A stretch of 34,054 nucleotides of DNA, taken from contig CALXUE010000017.1 of NCBI GenBank assembly GCA_944391615.1, positions 1 through 34,054 on the forward strand. The letters are read 5' to 3'. The first letter of the stretch is position 1. Each line of letters starts with the position of its first letter. Of this stretch, positions 23,829-28,644 are shown one piece after another. The DNA comes from an uncultured Alphaproteobacteria bacterium (GTDB taxonomy: Bacteria; Pseudomonadota; Alphaproteobacteria; RF32; CAG-239). The notes beneath the pieces were generated by a model that was given only the letters and a program-made list of their open reading frames with translations, was not told the DNA's origin and did not search any database. The position numbers and the translations under genes were made by a program.

Positions 23829-24710
23829 ATGAGTAAGCGGAAGTTTATCTTGTTGGCTTCGTTGTCTGTATGCGCGTTTGTTGCGGAGACGGCGCAAGCC
23901 GATATTTCTTCTTCAATGAATTATATATTCAAAGATGTTACACTTTTCAACACACTTCACACACATTTATCTTTGAATGGAGCTTTATCTCCACAACAAG
24001 TTTCAAAAAATCAAAAATCTTTGGTTAAAGTAGCCCAAGTCTGCTGGATTATGGATACAGGAGATTGCGCCGGTTTGGACTTTGTAAACTCGGATATCGG
24101 TAATAACGGGGGAGCCGGTGGTTCGGGAGGTGGGGACGAATATGACAAGAAAGGTCCTGAAGATTGTATTAAAGAAGGTTATACCGTCACCAACTGTCCG
24201 GATGGGCAAAAAGGTGACGGAGAATGTATGTATGCCGATGGGTACTATGCCAAATGTGTGCCCGATTGTCCAAGTGATTATAAAACGTGTAAATCCCCAT
24301 ATAAAGGTGCGGGGCAAGTTTGCGGCAATGGTTTATACCCAGAATGTTGTATCGACACTTGCGGGGCTGATTACAAATACACCTTAGGCTCAATCCCCGA
24401 CGGCTATGAGGCGGTTGGTGAGCCATGCATTCAATGCAATGGCAATTCTTATCAAGCAAAATATAAAGTGAAAGAGAAAGACTGTTCCGGATTTTTGGAT
24501 TGCGGAACTTTAGGCTGTGAGGATGGGGCTTCAACCTGCCAAAGCGGAAATCAGGTCAAGTGTTCGGAATGCAAAAAATGCCCGAACCTAGGCACAGAAT
24601 CAGAATGTCCGCCGTGCACAGTCTGCACGTTTGAGGAATGTTCAAATTTATACATCGTGACGGGATGCAAAGTTGGTTGTACTGATTATTGCAACTATTG
24701 CGCGTATTAG
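23829..24710 (+). CDS. secreted Cys-rich protein upstream of the DGR target
   Basis: A 293-aa exported protein I do not recognise. It has a clear signal peptide (1-24, ending AQA). An N-terminal part without cysteine runs to about residue 70, a Gly-rich linker (GGAGGSGGG) follows, and then a region with about 27 of the mature protein's 29 cysteines, spaced in short Cys-x(2-8)-Cys steps like a disulfide-knotted domain (EGF/TIL-like spacing, no confident match). AAAGG precedes the ATG. Two stop codons in a row (TAGTAG) end it, 94 bases before the target gene. It shares the island promoter and may be a surface partner or scaffold of the target; no variable repeat is present in it. Confidence 0.75.
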   Translation: MSKRKFILLASLSVCAFVAETAQADISSSMNYIFKDVTLFNTLHTHLSLNGALSPQQVSKNQKSLVKVAQVCWIMDTGDCAGLDFVNSDIGNNGGAGGSGGGDEYDKKGPEDCIKEGYTVTNCPDGQKGDGECMYADGYYAKCVPDCPSDYKTCKSPYKGAGQVCGNGLYPECCIDTCGADYKYTLGSIPDGYEAVGEPCIQCNGNSYQAKYKVKEKDCSGFLDCGTLGCEDGASTCQSGNQVKCSECKKCPNLGTESECPPCTVCTFEECSNLYIVTGCKVGCTDYCNYCAY

Positions 24711-24804
24711 TAGGGCAGAGATAAACAAAATATTATTAACCAAGCAGAGGTCTGGGCTCAATACAAAATTGATGATGGTAGGCCTTGTTTACGGGAGAAA
24801 AAAA

Positions 24805-25620
24805 ATGAGAAAATTTATATTATATTCATCGACTTTTATGGTGTTAAATGGAGTGGCCGAGGCGGCCTGTATCCAAACTCCAAGTTGTTCTTCATTGGGG
24901 TATGAAAGTACTTCCTCTTGTAGTGGTGGTATAAAATGTCCGTTTGGCAATGCGTGGAACTGTAATTTGATTAATAAGATAAATTCAATCAACACGCAGA
25001 TAACGAATTTGACAAATAAAATAACCACGCTAGAAGAGAAAATTGTAACTATAGAGAATAGCGCATCGTCAAGTAATTGTATAATCGGAGATATATTGTA
25101 TTCGGATAAGAGTTGTGATCCGAATGTAATAGCGTCCAAGAAACCGATTGGAGTTGTGTTTGATAGAGCGAATAAGTTGGCGATAGGGCTGGAGGAATCT
25201 AACCAATATTGGGCAACAGAATATTTTGATGTTCCGGGGCTGAGTAATATAACATCGTCATCAGCGGTTACAGCGGATTGGCAAGGTAAAAACAATACAA
25301 GGGTTGTGTTAGAATATTGTAAAACAAATGGGAAGAGTTGCCCAGCATTTGAATATGTGAATAGTTATAAGACAGAGGGAACTCAAGCCGGAGATTGGTA
25401 TTTACCGGCATTGGGTGAATTAAATGCGATATATGGCAATAAAGATGTGTTAAATATAACATTAGGGAAAATAGGGGGAACAAAATTGGGTACAAATTAC
25501 TATTGGTCTTCTTCCGAGTATTCTAATAACAATGCTTGGCTATTGGACTTCTATAATGGTGGTGTGACCAACTACAATAAGGATGTCAGCAATTACGTTC
25601 GCCCAGTCCTAGCTTTTTAG
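24805..25620 (+). CDS. DGR target: secreted coiled-coil/DUF1566 (C-type-lectin-like) variable protein
   Basis: A 271-aa exported protein whose C-terminus is diversified by the adjacent retroelement. It has a signal peptide (1-20), a short Cys-rich patch (22-53, six Cys), a coiled-coil stalk (about 54-88, with regular Ile/Leu/Asn spacing) and a DUF1566/Lcl-type domain (about 92-271) with DWYLPALGELNAI and YWSSSE, as in Legionella and Treponema DGR targets. Residues 239, 246, 248, 250, 253, 255, 257, 260, 261 and 262 differ from TR1, all through adenine changes. The ATG at 24805 has GGGAGA upstream; a longer frame from 24673 overlaps the previous gene and would bury the signal peptide. Codon use is unusual: 14 of 20 Ile codons are ATA. 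The ligand is unknown. Confidence 0.9.
   Translation: MRKFILYSSTFMVLNGVAEAACIQTPSCSSLGYESTSSCSGGIKCPFGNAWNCNLINKINSINTQITNLTNKITTLEEKIVTIENSASSSNCIIGDILYSDKSCDPNVIASKKPIGVVFDRANKLAIGLEESNQYWATEYFDVPGLSNITSSSAVTADWQGKNNTRVVLEYCKTNGKSCPAFEYVNSYKTEGTQAGDWYLPALGELNAIYGNKDVLNITLGKIGGTKLGTNYYWSSSEYSNNNAWLLDFYNGGVTNYNKDVSNYVRPVLAF
25503..25615 (+). repeat. DGR variable repeat (VR)
   Basis: 113 bases at the 3' end of the target, aligned without gaps to TR1 (offset 827). There are 13 mismatches, and all are at adenines of TR1 (A to G, T or C). The last 22 bases (TACGTTCGCCCAGTCC and onward) are identical to both TRs and would act as the initiation-of-mutagenic-homology end. Homology stops where the VR has TTTTAG and the TRs have TATTC before their own stop. 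Confidence 0.95.
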
Positions 25621-25645
25621 GCTCTTATCCCTTTAACCCTTTTTT

Positions 25646-25663
25646 ACGCCCCGTTAGGGGCGT
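25646..25663. repeat. GC-rich hairpin 3' of VR
   Basis: A perfect 7-bp stem (ACGCCCC/GGGGCGT) with a GTTA loop, 25 bases after the target stop codon. DGRs commonly have a short hairpin/cruciform here that aids target recognition. It has no T-run and so is a poor terminator. The loop does not fit the GRNA tetraloop described for phage DGRs. Confidence 0.6.
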
Positions 25664-25686
25664 TATTTAAAATTATTATGCTATCG

Positions 25687-25720
25687 GGTTGTTTTCATTT
25701 TGAAAAAAATGAAAACAACC
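25687..25720. repeat. 15-bp perfect hairpin with GAAA loop
   Basis: A perfect 15-bp palindromic stem (25687-25701 pairing 25706-25720) closed by GAAA. It lies between the target and avd. It may terminate target transcripts (a weak GTTTT follows), stabilise the mRNA, or act as a second DGR cruciform. Confidence 0.65.
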
Positions 25721-25829
25721 GTTTTGCTATTATTATCCTGTTTATATTAGCGTTCTTTAATAAAATAATTGTTGACGGAACTTCCTTTTTCTGTCACCCT
25801 TGCATTATGCTGAAAGTGAGTATGGTATT

Positions 25830-26177
25830 ATGGTTTTATACAGCGAATTACCTGTCTATCGCGACAGTTATGAATTGCTCTTGAGTGTCTACCGTTTAAC
25901 CAGCGGCTTTGCTCATGAATATAAATATAGTTTGGGACAAGATATGAAGCGGGATGCTTTGGCTTTGTTTCGGCATTTGTATCATGCCAATCGCGCAGCT
26001 GACAAATCTGCCCATTTGGACAGGTTTTTGGAAGATTTTGAACTCCTAAAACTCGAATTGCGGATTTGTATGGACTTGAAACTGTTGCCATTGAAAAAAA
26101 TGGCGCAGCTGTCTGAACTTATGGATAGTATTGGTCGCCAAACAACCGCTTGGCGCAACAAATCTAAAAGATTATAA
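25830..26177 (+). CDS. avd: Avd-like DGR accessory protein
   Basis: A 115-aa four-helix-bundle protein of the Avd/S23 ribosomal-intervening-sequence family. In Bordetella phage, Avd forms a pentameric barrel that binds the reverse transcriptase and TR RNA and is required for mutagenic retrohoming. Matching features are the N-terminal YRDSYELLLSVYRLTSGFAHEYKYSLGQDMKRDALALF segment, a basic middle, and long helices with conserved Leu spacing. The ATG at 25830 is preferred, with GTGAG about 9 bases upstream; a TTG at 25800 would add 10 residues. Position between target and TR is canonical. Confidence 0.88.
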   Translation: MVLYSELPVYRDSYELLLSVYRLTSGFAHEYKYSLGQDMKRDALALFRHLYHANRAADKSAHLDRFLEDFELLKLELRICMDLKLLPLKKMAQLSELMDSIGRQTTAWRNKSKRL

Positions 26178-26329
26178 TTATGCTGATTATGTTTGACTGA
26201 GATTATTGGCCGGAATTTGCGCGGTTATGGCCGCCAAAGTGTGCGTGTTTTTTTTATGAAAAAGGACTGTCGGCAGATTAATGTTTTTTAATCTGCTAAA
26301 ATGTTTGAAACTGACAGTTAGCTCGTTTG
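26178..26329 (+). ncRNA. structured leader of TR1
   Basis: Non-coding region between avd and TR1. From 26209 it is repeated before TR2 at a fixed 274-base offset, with 3 differences in about 121 bases. Predicted structure: GCGG/CCGC small hairpin, an 8-bp hairpin 26273-26296 (GCAGATTA/TAATCTGC) nested in an outer ACTGTC/GACAGT pairing (26266-26271 with 26313-26318). This is presumably part of the TR RNA read by the RT-Avd complex. Confidence 0.7.
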
Positions 26330-26442
26330 TTGGTCTTCTTCCGAGAATTCTAATAACAATGCTTGGAAATTGAACTTCAATAATGGTAATGTGAACAACA
26401 ACAATAAGAATAACAACAATTACGTTCGCCCAGTCCTAGCTT
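26330..26442 (+). repeat. DGR template repeat 1 (TR1)
   Basis: The 113-base template for the VR. The central 75 bases hold 37 adenines, mostly as AAT and AAC codons, and these can never mutate to a stop because the third base is a pyrimidine. One AAA and one AAG are exceptions. Read in the target frame it would encode WSSSENSNNNAWKLNF and onward, ending VRPVLAYS-stop, which differs from the present target's end (LAF-stop). Confidence 0.95.
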
Positions 26443-26482
26443 ATTCGTAAAAAAAAAGTTTCTTTTGTCTCAGTTCTTTTAT

Positions 26483-26603
26483 GCCGGAATTTGCGCGGTT
26501 ATGGCCGCCAAAGCGTGCGTGTTTTTTTTATGAAAAAGGACTGTCGGCAGATTGATGTTTTTTAATCTGCTAAAATGTTTGAAACTGACAGTTAACTCGT
26601 TTG
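26483..26603 (+). ncRNA. structured leader of TR2
   Basis: Second copy of the TR leader with the same hairpins. Its A-to-G change at 26554 falls in the inner stem and turns an A-U pair into G-U, so pairing is kept. Confidence 0.68.
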
Positions 26604-26719
26604 TTGGTCTTCTTCCGAGAATTCAAACAACAACGCGTGGAATTTGAGATTCAGTGACGGTAACGTGAACAACAACAATAAGAACAACAATAACAATTAC
26701 GTTCGCCCAGTCCTAGCTT
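26604..26719 (+). repeat. DGR template repeat 2 (TR2), no matching VR in the window
   Basis: A 116-base second template, one codon longer than TR1 in the Asn-rich tract. The 5' 16 bases and 3' 22 bases are identical to TR1 and VR, but the middle differs at non-adenine positions as well (for example AAC where the VR has AAT, GCG where it has GCT), so it did not template this VR. Its frame predicts a target containing AW-x-LRFSDG-x-V and ending VRPVLAYS. Confidence 0.9.
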
Positions 26720-26740
26720 ATTCATGAAAAAAATTTTTGT

Positions 26741-26778
26741 GGCAGAAATGTTTTTTTGTTTCTGCCGCTTTTTGTTTC
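26741..26778 (+). terminator. hairpin between TR2 and the RT gene
   Basis: GGCAGAAA/TTTCTGCC 8-bp stem (26741-26748 with 26759-26766), U-rich loop, followed by GCTTTTTGTTTC. It looks like a weak terminator or attenuator, placed where it could set the 3' end of the TR RNA and limit read-through into the RT. The RT ribosome site and start follow within about 25 bases. Confidence 0.5.
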
Positions 26779-26790
26779 TTTGGGTGAAAT

Positions 26791-28110
26791 ATGCAAGATA
26801 TTCAATTAGAGCTTTTTGATGTTGATGATAATAAAGTAACTCTTGAAGAGCTGTTTCAGGCTTATATTGATTGCCGAAAACACAAACGTAAAACAACTAA
26901 TGCTCTTGATTTTGAAGCTGATTTCGAACAGAATTTGATTGAACTTTATCATGAAATTAATGATGGTTCTTATTGTCCCGGAAAATCTATCGCCTTTATT
27001 GTGGATAAACCTGTTAAGCGTGAAGTTTTTGCTGCCGATTTTAGAGATAGGGTGGTGCACCATTTGATTATTAATAAAATACTTCCTCTTTTGGAAAAAG
27101 AGTTTATTCATGACAGCTATTCTTGTCGGGAAGGTAAGGGTGTGCAATATGGTGTTAAGCGTGTGGCAGATTTTGTGCGACTATGCTCTGAAAACTATTC
27201 TGAGGATTGTTATATCCTTAAAATGGATATTCAATCTTTTTTTATGAGCATTGATAAAAAACTTTTGTTTGCTAAGCTTAAAAAATTTATTAACCAAAAA
27301 TATCAGGCTGCAGATAAAAAACTGTTAATTGATTTGGTGCAAAAAGTGGTTTGTGCTTGTCCCGAAAAAAATTGTTGCATAAAGGGAAGTCGGACTAATT
27401 GGAATGGGCTGCCTCCTTCTAAAAGTTTGTTTACCGTTGCCGCTCAGAAGGGGTTGCCTATCGGAAATTTGACTTCTCAGGTGTTTGCTAATTTTTATTT
27501 GACAGCTTTTGATAAGTTTGTGAAAAATGTGTGTGGGGTTGAGTTTTATGGGCGGTATGTGGATGATTTTGTTATTGTACACAAAAGTAAGGAGTTTTTG
27601 TTGCGCCTTATCCCTCGCTTGAAAGCTTTTATTCGGCAGGAGTTGCTCCTTAATTTGCATCCTAAGAAAATTTATTTGCAGCACTATTCTAAAGGGGTTA
27701 AGTTTATTGGGGCGGTCATTAAACCAGGGCGGCAATATATTGGAAATCGTACAAAAGGTAATTTTTTTGATAAACTTCGATTCTTTAATAATGAAGCTTT
27801 GCATAATGAAAATTTTGTTTGTGAAAATGCTGAGCATTTTGCTGCTTGTGTGAACTCATATCTTGGGTTCATGGTGCATTACAGCAGCTTTAAAATCAGA
27901 CGGCGGATGTTGTGTGAAAATATTGCTCCTGCTTGGTTTAAGGTTATTAACATCTCTAAAGATTTTAAAAAAATTGTGGTTAAGCCTGAATATAAATTAC
28001 GTTCTATGGTGATGACTAAACTTAAAAAACGCGCAAAAAATTGTCGCAGGCAACGCCGAAAATTGGATAAAAAGGCTTTGGCTATGGGGATTTCAATTAA
28101 GACTTTGTAA
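26791..28110 (+). CDS. DGR reverse transcriptase
   Basis: A 439-aa error-prone reverse transcriptase that makes adenine-mutagenised cDNA from TR RNA. Motif A LKMDIQSFFMSID (D146), the DGR-type motif GLPIGNLTSQ (221-230, in place of the QGxxxSP of retroviral RTs), and YVDD (256-259) are all intact, then GVKFIGAVIKPG and a long basic C-terminal thumb region. There is no maturase or endonuclease domain and no intron RNA, so it is not group II; no msr/msd, so not a retron. It is longer than Bordetella Brt (~330 aa). The N-terminus holds QLELF (5-9), a possible beta-clamp-binding peptide. GGGTGAAAT precedes the ATG. Confidence 0.95.
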   Translation: MQDIQLELFDVDDNKVTLEELFQAYIDCRKHKRKTTNALDFEADFEQNLIELYHEINDGSYCPGKSIAFIVDKPVKREVFAADFRDRVVHHLIINKILPLLEKEFIHDSYSCREGKGVQYGVKRVADFVRLCSENYSEDCYILKMDIQSFFMSIDKKLLFAKLKKFINQKYQAADKKLLIDLVQKVVCACPEKNCCIKGSRTNWNGLPPSKSLFTVAAQKGLPIGNLTSQVFANFYLTAFDKFVKNVCGVEFYGRYVDDFVIVHKSKEFLLRLIPRLKAFIRQELLLNLHPKKIYLQHYSKGVKFIGAVIKPGRQYIGNRTKGNFFDKLRFFNNEALHNENFVCENAEHFAACVNSYLGFMVHYSSFKIRRRMLCENIAPAWFKVINISKDFKKIVVKPEYKLRSMVMTKLKKRAKNCRRQRRKLDKKALAMGISIKTL

Positions 28111-28129
28111 TCTATTACTGAATAAAAAA

Positions 28130-28167
28130 ACGGCAGCGTGTTTTTGAGTGCACGGTGTCGTTTTTTT
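28130..28167. terminator. bidirectional terminator after the RT
   Basis: An 11-bp stem (ACGGCAGCGTG/CACGGTGTCGT, one G-G mismatch) with a T-run on one side and an A-run on the other. It serves the RT and the opposing lipoprotein gene. Confidence 0.8.
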
Positions 28168-28190
28168 GTTGTGGTGTTTGAAAAAAAATC

Positions 28191-28427
28191 TTAAAAGCCA
28201 TAGGCTCTTAAAATTTCTTCATTCGGCGACAGGGTAGTGGGGTGGCTGCCGTCATGATTAATTTTTTGTTCCTGCTTAAACCAGCTTTCACTTACGCTGT
28301 GGGCCGGTATGCCATATAGCAATTGATACGGGTTTTTGGCGTAGTAAAAAGCGGTTTCTGACACATAACATGAGCTTAGCCCCATGCTCATTGTTATAAT
28401 CATTAAAGAGAATAATATTTTTTTCAT
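28191..28427 (-). CDS. small predicted lipoprotein, unknown function
   Basis: A 78-aa protein with a lipoprotein signal: basic start, hydrophobic core and LSSC lipobox, C20 lipidated. The mature part is about 59 residues, with YHVSE-like and tyrosine-rich segments (TAFYYAKNPYQLLYG) and no family I recognise. No clear ribosome site is present before the ATG. It stands alone between the RT terminator and tRNA-Ser. It could be cargo of the island or a host gene. Confidence 0.65.
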   Translation of the reverse strand: MKKILFSLMIITMSMGLSSCYVSETAFYYAKNPYQLLYGIPAHSVSESWFKQEQKINHDGSHPTTLSPNEEILRAYGF

Positions 28428-28556: not shown

Positions 28557-28644
28557 GGAGAGTTGGCAGAGCGGTAATGCAGCGGATTGCTAATCCGTCA
28601 TCCCGAATAGGGATGCACTGGTTCGAGTCCAGTACTCTCCGCCA
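28557..28644 (+). tRNA. tRNA-Ser(GCT)
   Basis: An 88-base class II tRNA. The 7-bp acceptor stem is GGAGAGT/ACTCTCC, the anticodon loop has GCT at 28589-28591, a long variable arm (CATCCC...GGGATG) identifies serine, the T-loop is GTTCGAGTC, and CCA is encoded. It reads AGC/AGT codons. Confidence 0.95.

Follow-up and report, generated by a model that had tools for sequence, protein, structure and literature searches.

One reverse transcriptase, two tandem templates and a scattered set of adenine-imprinted variable repeats in an uncultured alphaproteobacterium

The retroelement locus

The window analysed here is a 34,054-nt stretch of contig CALXUE010000017.1 (assembly GCA_944391615.1) from an uncultured alphaproteobacterium; coordinates are window positions, and the features of the element described all lie on the forward strand. 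Positions 24805–28110 are a complete diversity-generating retroelement (DGR), its parts running in the order target gene with variable repeat (VR), hairpins, avd (accessory variability determinant), template repeats (TRs) and reverse transcriptase (RT) gene. A sequence-only reading had proposed that all DGR parts were present in canonical order, and this was borne out. That reading was right about the DGR but incomplete: the genome combines one RT with two templates and 19 strict VRs (defined below), and it had left undeveloped the second template, the RNA element that precedes each TR, and the targets at other places in the genome.

The target gene (24805–25620; 271 aa) encodes a hydrophobic secretion-like N-terminus, a Cys-rich segment, a helix (residues 51–90) and a C-terminal Lcl_C (DUF1566) C-type-lectin domain (PF07603, 40.3 bits, cut-off 34.9). 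A structural model built from 92 sequences, with mean predicted local distance difference test (pLDDT) score 82.7 (single-sequence prediction, 38; residues 1–30 and 35–53 below 50), predicts for the window target, the one target whose fold was compared, the C-type-lectin fold expected of DGR targets. A Bacteroides fimbrial tip protein (4eps, 24% identity to the target) and the C-terminal domain of Legionella Lcl (8q4e, 26%) resemble it in fold only; Mtd and TvpA were not among the structure-search matches listed, which carries no evidential weight.

The VR (25503–25615) aligns without gaps over 113 nt to the first template, TR1 (26330–26442), with 13 mismatches, all on TR1 adenines, so that 13 of the 41 template adenines and 0 of the 72 other bases are changed. 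The alignment and its adenine confinement had been read correctly before; the chance of 13 of 13 falling on adenines (41 of 113 bases), put earlier at about two in a million, has an exact value that is a little lower, 4.6e–7. Ten residues differ between VR and the TR1 reading frame, counted by eye, as had been claimed. The 3' end of the VR region (25594–25620, TACGTTCGCCCAGTCCTAGCTTTTTAG) resembles an initiation of mutagenic homing (IMH) site: the window VR has GCTTTTTAG where both templates end in GCTTATTC, as for an IMH and its template counterpart IMH*, a role predicted here by analogy with the DGR of BPP-1. Adenine-specific changes, a lectin fold and an IMH/IMH* pair are likewise features of that system.

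Past the VR lie a hairpin found by eye (ACGCCCC-GTTA-GGGGCGT, 25646–25663) and a second, terminator-like hairpin of 15 bp (25687–25720). Together with another terminator-like hairpin between the second template and the RT gene (26739–26768) these last are weak candidates, since 24600–28250 gave three terminator-like sites against 2.8 expected in shuffles. The avd open reading frame was listed from a TTG at 25800, and the start of its relatives, MVLYxELPVYRD, falls at 25830, which gives a gene at 25830–26177, between target and templates. Its product matches bAvd (PF22296, 58.6 bits, cut-off 40) and phrog_3206, 'Avd protein of DGR' (E 2.4e–23); NCBIfam NF033474 scored 53 bits, under its cut-off of 80.

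The RT (26791–28110; 439 aa) is a PF00078 protein (64.3 bits, cut-off 29.6) with the motifs PIGNLTSQ and YVDD, which read PIGSLTSQ and YMDD in BPP-1. It thus has the DGR-type [ILV]GxxxSQ instead of QGxxxSP, and lacks the PQGxxxSP found in the three RTs compared that are annotated as group II. A tree of 156 RTs, a set with no retron RTs among them, placed it among DGR RTs and outside those three; a grouping with group II RTs, which the sequence-only reading had named as evidence against itself, did not appear. Its best solved relative is 8ub7 (E 1.8e–38), which we take to be the BPP-1 enzyme, its 328 residues fitting the BPP-1 brt gene. No NCBIfam cut-off was reached, the best match being a group II RT (93.7 bits, cut-off 300), and retron_St85, from a class absent from the tree, scored 67 bits (cut-off 235). 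The RT has neither the QGxxxSP motif nor the tree placement of a group II intron RT. RT motif, RT tree, 8ub7, Avd, adenine-specific TR/VR mismatches and the predicted lectin fold of the target all uphold the identification as a DGR.

Two templates in tandem

The interval between avd and the RT gene contains a 211-nt direct repeat at 274-nt spacing (26209–26419 and 26483–26693, 92% identity), detected by direct-repeat search and unreported by Tandem Repeats Finder; the template unit of about 274 nt is therefore a tandem duplicate. Each copy consists of a 5' RNA element (26207–26320 and 26481–26594, described below) followed by a template, TR1 (26330–26443) or TR2 (26604–26720), the latter one codon longer. 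The two templates differ at ordinary sites as well as at adenines, and have 20 and 21 variable codons, allowing some 10^22 proteins each. TR1 alone explains the window VR, because TR2 would need 10 non-adenine mismatches, so that the purpose of TR2 becomes a question.

The target repertoire of the genome

The genome (G000) comprises 1,570,113 bases in 32 contigs and holds a single match to this RT (E ≤0.001). We scanned the window and 35 further stretches for VRs, tolerating changes at template adenines; the stretches came from searching the whole genome with TR2 and with the target protein, and a later TR1 search added no place outside them. Matches are named by contig and position in the genome (e.g. 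C16:33497), and those with at most six non-adenine mismatches were called strict. The scan gave 24 VR-like matches, 19 of them strict, in 18 genes, two strict VRs sharing one gene on C16. Eleven are TR1-type and eight TR2-type, none of the latter inside the window. At six columns where the non-adenine bases of the templates differ, no more than one base of the opposite template is present in 18 of the 19; the exception, C16:33497, is a TR1/TR2 mosaic.

Over the 19 strict VRs, 323 of 775 adenine sites were changed against 43 of 1370 other sites (Fisher P = 8.5e–116), the template adenine being replaced by G (158), T (127) or C (38). Changes falling equally on non-adenine sites, which the sequence-only reading had named as evidence against itself, thus did not appear. 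Non-adenine mismatches were altogether lacking in the window VR (0/72), C1:119685 (0/72), C7:77017 (0/75) and C10:25112 (0/72, with 9 inserted nt), and each window template has VRs of this clean kind. Each VR has its own, independent adenine pattern: at some 41 adenine sites, pairs differ at no fewer than 13 sites in the TR1 set and 14 in the TR2 set.

The targets belong to a large paralogous family, with 56 protein matches in the genome and a common layout of secretion-like N-terminus, Cys-rich segment (CIQTPSCSSLGY...KCPFG..WNC), coiled coil and Lcl_C domain. Such a family, with its common ends, invites gene conversion between paralogs, and the mosaic VR might be taken as a product of it. 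As the source of VR variety in place of retrohoming, we find gene conversion hardly credible: the changes concentrate at template adenines in the proportions just given, a template-matched bias unexpected under conversion, and no pair of strict VRs within a set differs at fewer than 13 adenine sites.

Contigs C29, C30, C31, C2, C3, C5 and C7 each begin near a family member; the family seems to break the assembly, targets may be missing, and 19 VRs is probably a lower bound. Strict VRs end within five codons of the stop codon in 18 of 19 cases, C16:33497 being internal, and internal VRs are unusual for DGRs. It lies in a gene (C16:32799–34199) with two Lcl_C-like stretches, each with a strict VR, the inner one the TR2-type mosaic and the outer one TR1-type. 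Another gene (C19:8992–10410) also has two Lcl_C-like stretches, with a weaker inner match (13 non-adenine mismatches).

Our best account, held with good confidence, is that one RT and two tandem templates stand behind the adenine imprints in 19 VRs of 18 scattered lectin-domain genes, and that this one RT–Avd pair is likely to rewrite them all in trans.

Recent activity

The element had been described as active or recently active, and public homologues support this. Among 120 proteins listed, those of 250–330 aa were compared; they may include paralogs and are not reads of one population. The closest among the matches listed, P0016, differs from the window target at 7 of 232 backbone positions, 14 of 22 adenine-containing VR codons and 0 of 17 other VR codons, so that its VR differs at adenine codons only. 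Summed over the five closest 'ena'-source proteins among the matches listed, the differences were 83/1157 in the backbone, 70/110 at adenine codons and 1/85 at other VR codons. P0023 and P0040 are omitted from this sum because their source mark '-' suggests that they come from the genome that contains the window; adding them brings the set to seven, the closest among the matches listed, which gave 100/154 and 1/119 at the two classes of VR codon. Assigning the public VRs to TR1 or TR2 at the protein level was abandoned, TR2 being inseparable there from TR1 plus one codon.

The VRs might instead belong to a relic system, diversified long ago and now no more than ordinary diverging paralogs. Such decay would suit the five of 24 VR-like matches with 8–14 non-adenine mismatches and a family (56 protein matches) that exceeds the VR set (24 VR-like matches). 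We nevertheless think a relic quite improbable: four VRs are free of non-adenine mismatches, P0016 differs at 14 of 22 adenine codons at 3% backbone divergence, and the RT, Avd and template sequences are all open. Recent activity is thus supported by these sequence comparisons, and P0016 also lends indirect support to RT-dependent mutagenic retrohoming.

Template choice

Target ancestry does not account for template type. In a phylogeny of the domain immediately preceding the VR, type switches eight times, where shuffled labels average 6.4 (2000 shuffles); one C16 gene holds both VR types (C16:33497 and C16:34082); and the 3' end up to GTCCTAGCTT is common to both templates and most VRs. Targets therefore probably swap templates, and the simplest reading of the common 3' end is that the cDNA of either template can overwrite any target. 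We infer swapping rather than observe it, because recombination between paralogs would also mix types.

That last point equally serves the opposite view, in which each template is tied to a fixed group of targets, the two groups having originated when template–target pairs were duplicated, with no swapping; this would also suit the near-pure fit of 18 of the 19 strict VRs to one template. We consider fixed sets unlikely, given that VR type is unclustered on the target-domain tree, that one gene carries both types and one VR is a mosaic, and that VRs of both types have the same 3' end.

A predicted RNA element 5' of each template

Some 110 nt preceding each TR are conserved. Of 28 template units from this genome and its relatives we aligned 26, leaving out a near-identical copy (L099 unit 3) and one with a long insertion (L094); RNAalifold predicted two stem-loops with 28 pairs, and in 18 of these both partners vary. 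A covariance model, R1, built from these units also recovers the two left out. The window elements, both training sequences, score 85.0 bits (E 1.8e–13) and 85.4 bits (E 1.5e–13) in a search of one genome; these are exactly the two matches in the window's genome, the best E at the fetched VR stretches being only 0.22. No Rfam family reached its gathering score on the template region (the window has three tRNAs elsewhere), and a search with the element gave two matches only, at E 0.45–0.48, far under gathering scores.

Across 56 genomes, searched with Infernal's stricter filters, under which weak matches may be lost, R1 matched in 11, all within the 13 that have this RT, and in 0 of the 43 others. 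Among 70 further DGR loci of the genome collection, 34 matched at E ≤0.01, in every case upstream of the RT and in 33 at a distance of 350 nt or less; by record annotation they include Bacteroidota, Legionellaceae, Chlorobiaceae and a Myxococcales metagenome-assembled genome (MAG). The TR lies between element and RT in 32 of the 34 (exceptions, L156 and L122), with 19–97 nt from TR end to RT start in 31 and 476 nt in L147. A structure-free MAFFT alignment of the 34 sequences had 97.5% of cells able to pair, against 38.5–47.5% when the partners were slid, and in 10 of the 12 pairs both sides were changed; the sequences had been picked by R1, which favours pairing, and another alignment, fitted to R1, leans to its structure. 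Viral contigs had R1 matches (E ≤0.01) at 10 of 80 loci, one (L186) downstream of its RT. On the RT tree, labelled at R1 ≥25 bits with L186 left out, the element-bearing loci all fall in one clade (111 of 156 tips, support 0.998) that includes 44 tips counted as without a match; the BPP-1 RT is outside it.

These comparisons suggest that a two-stem RNA fold 5' of each template probably marks it as a template. The templates of an array, inner and last, have the 5' element in common but a common 3' flank of only some 17–25 nt (by eye), and both window templates have clean VR sets; the 5' element would therefore be the likeliest template mark in this lineage.

In the known precedent the structured RNA lies on the other side of the TR. 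Template recognition by a DGR enzyme is best worked out for BPP-1, where it uses a spacer 3' of the TR, and cDNA synthesis is stopped by a motif in the 3' terminus of avd (PMC12875486). The element might accordingly be a stop signal that ends cDNA synthesis, with RT–Avd docking and priming, as in BPP-1, on the 3' flank and the start of the RT gene: BPP-1 does combine a 5' termination motif with a 3' spacer (PMC12875486), and the 19–97 nt from TR end to RT in 31 of 32 loci could, with the RT gene start, serve as such a spacer. We regard a stop signal as rather unlikely, though to be taken seriously. Inner templates are followed by the 5' element of the next unit and the last by the RT gene, with little in common after the TR, and both window templates have VRs without any non-adenine mismatch despite this short tail; the strongly covarying two-stem fold also exceeds the apparent need of a stop. 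A template mark in the 5' element remains our preferred reading.

Relatives and tandem arrays

This RT was found at E ≤1e–30 in 13 of the 56 genomes searched, its own included. The members from the same genus and family are uncultured Alphaproteobacteria MAGs, and the lineage has members from animal guts (deer rectum and deer cecum, the source of L107). Tandem units directly before the RT number two in the window and L110, three in each of L093, L098 and L112, four in L099 and seven in L092. Some tandem repeat occurs within 4 kb upstream of the RT at 20 of 160 further DGR loci, but it abuts the RT only at L110, L111 (Azospirillum sp. CAG:239), L112 and L115, all annotated as proteobacteria.

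In one relative (G005) with three templates, two of them identical, templates are again paired with separate VR sets: a TR1-type VR has changes at 20 of 40 adenines and 0 of 95 other sites, a TR2/3-type VR at 19 of 38 and 0 of 88. Another (G004) has a split DGR, in which contig C26 (L312) carries Avd plus two template units and contig C30 (L095) the RT; near that RT there was no R1 match, nor by eye an Avd in the 740 nt upstream. In G002 (L096) the RT directly follows Avd with no template between. The second of the seven templates of G006 (L092) is long (160 nt) and adenine-poor (33) and looks like a captured VR, and G018 has a fifth R1 match (C72:6624–6735, L332; 66 bits) on a contig other than that of its array.

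Rewriting of the templates themselves, by RT mutating TR copies at adenines, found no support as a general rule, five of seven arrays showing no excess of this kind; in L092 differences involving adenine were moderately higher in TRs (263/459) than in the flanking element (240/550). The G018 array (L099) stands out, since adenine is involved in 35 of 50 differences between its template copies but in 9 of 30 in the element beside them.

Two flanking features of the window may be recorded. Directly upstream of the target, 23829–24710 encodes a Cys-rich, apparently secreted protein of 293 aa, without match at E 1 in Pfam and NCBIfam searches, and a tRNA-Ser (GCT) gene lies at 28557–28644, about 450 nt downstream of the RT gene.

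Discussion

Several results weigh against our account. Five VR-like matches in the genome are poor, as noted, and may be decayed, and a secretion-like N-terminus is lacking in at least one strict target, C1:119685. For C10, C5:100709 and C7, the 110 nt following the VR showed no stem of at least 6 bp. Public VRs of 38 residues are explained by TR1 plus one extra codon as well as or better than by TR2. In G006, with its seven templates, nine VR-like matches have 6–25 non-adenine mismatches to their best template, although one of the nine has zero to another template, with a 24-nt gap; G018 has one VR candidate only for four array templates. The RT-bearing relatives G001 (L097) and G002 gave no R1 match, so that even within the genus the element does not occur throughout, and 36 of the 70 further DGR loci had none at E ≤0.01, six of them for want of upstream sequence. 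Activity, action in trans and the role of the element are moreover what we infer from sequence comparison.

The mechanism we propose would run as follows. Each template unit (element, TR and short tail) would be transcribed, and RT–Avd would recognise it by the two-stem element that precedes the TR; the template adenines would be scrambled during error-prone synthesis of cDNA; and the cDNA would integrate at the 3' end common to VRs and both templates, so that any one target would be open to overwriting from either template. The outcome would be a large repertoire of binding proteins that is constantly renewed, the majority of them probably located on the cell surface.

The likeness to BPP-1 (mtd/avd/TR/brt) extends to the same parts in the order target–avd–TR–RT, the RT motif PIGxLTSQ and a VR at the 3' end of the target. 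The sequence record of BPP-1 has one TR and one VR, whereas here there are two templates. In BPP-1 avd abuts the TR (0 nt) and the 144 nt 3' of the TR form a structured spacer (PMC12875486), whereas here about 150 nt with the covarying element precede each TR and 70 nt follow the last, a comparison with the BPP-1-type spacer that concerns length only. R1 had no match in an 8-kb BPP-1 stretch.

A C-terminal DUF1566 domain with the VR, as in the target here, is described for human-microbiome DUF1566 DGRs and Bacuni phages (PMC4159848, PMC8143477). Of 948 DGRs in the MetaCSST survey, 271 were reported to have multiple VRs, and 216 of these had a single template; the survey also reported Stenotrophomonas SKA14 (two TRs, six VRs) and Pseudomonas costantinii, whose six TRs and 91 TR–VR pairs were called atypical, with few A-to-N changes (PMC6642488). 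In the parts of these sources covered, neither tandem units with a repeated 5' RNA element nor template-split targets are described. Trichodesmium erythraeum has 18 TR/VR loci and two DGR RTs (PMC8867640), and cyanobacterial DGRs have remote targets (PMC7517822). Our system resembles such multi-target cellular DGRs, as far as these sources describe them, in remote targets apparently diversified in trans by a common RT; it differs in pairing one RT and two adjacent templates with 19 strict VRs, split by template, in 1.57 Mb, and its targets look like secreted lectins, not like defence sensors. The Zeta crAss-like phage Lera has several TRs, each with its own VR, with adenine-only changes reported in TR1–VR1 alone (PMC12386605); here both templates have VRs without non-adenine mismatches, and the templates are tandem duplicates.

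DGRs with remote targets, many VRs or more than one TR are thus already known (PMC8867640, PMC10907252, PMC6642488, PMC12386605). New relative to the literature covered are tandem arrays with a repeated RNA element, the template-split repertoire and a 5' element across a broad DGR clade. Neither the element nor the arrays were described in the passages of that literature covered (e.g. PMC8144416, PMC4891356), and an earlier description elsewhere is possible; the 5' template RNA is probably previously undescribed.

A broader proposal we advance tentatively, as one that may well prove wrong: the 5' RNA would be a portable template tag of a large, cross-phylum DGR lineage, RT–Avd would read any adenine-rich stretch behind it, and interchangeable tandem templates (two here, up to seven elsewhere, once unlinked to the RT) would feed some eighteen lectin genes. 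The tandem templates are a natural experiment in this respect, in that they leave the 5' element, the TR and the very short tail as the places where the mark would be expected. With the R1 model, DGR templates can be located even where there is no VR, unlinked ones included. A further question is posed by the occurrence of one RT alongside 19 strict VRs in 1.57 Mb, every VR being based on one or the other of two template alphabets. If the element is a tag, template choice would be portable, which would matter for directed-evolution tools; and if the portable-tag proposal is true, the BPP-1 architecture would here be turned around, with cells stacking templates as a plug-in mutator repertoire.

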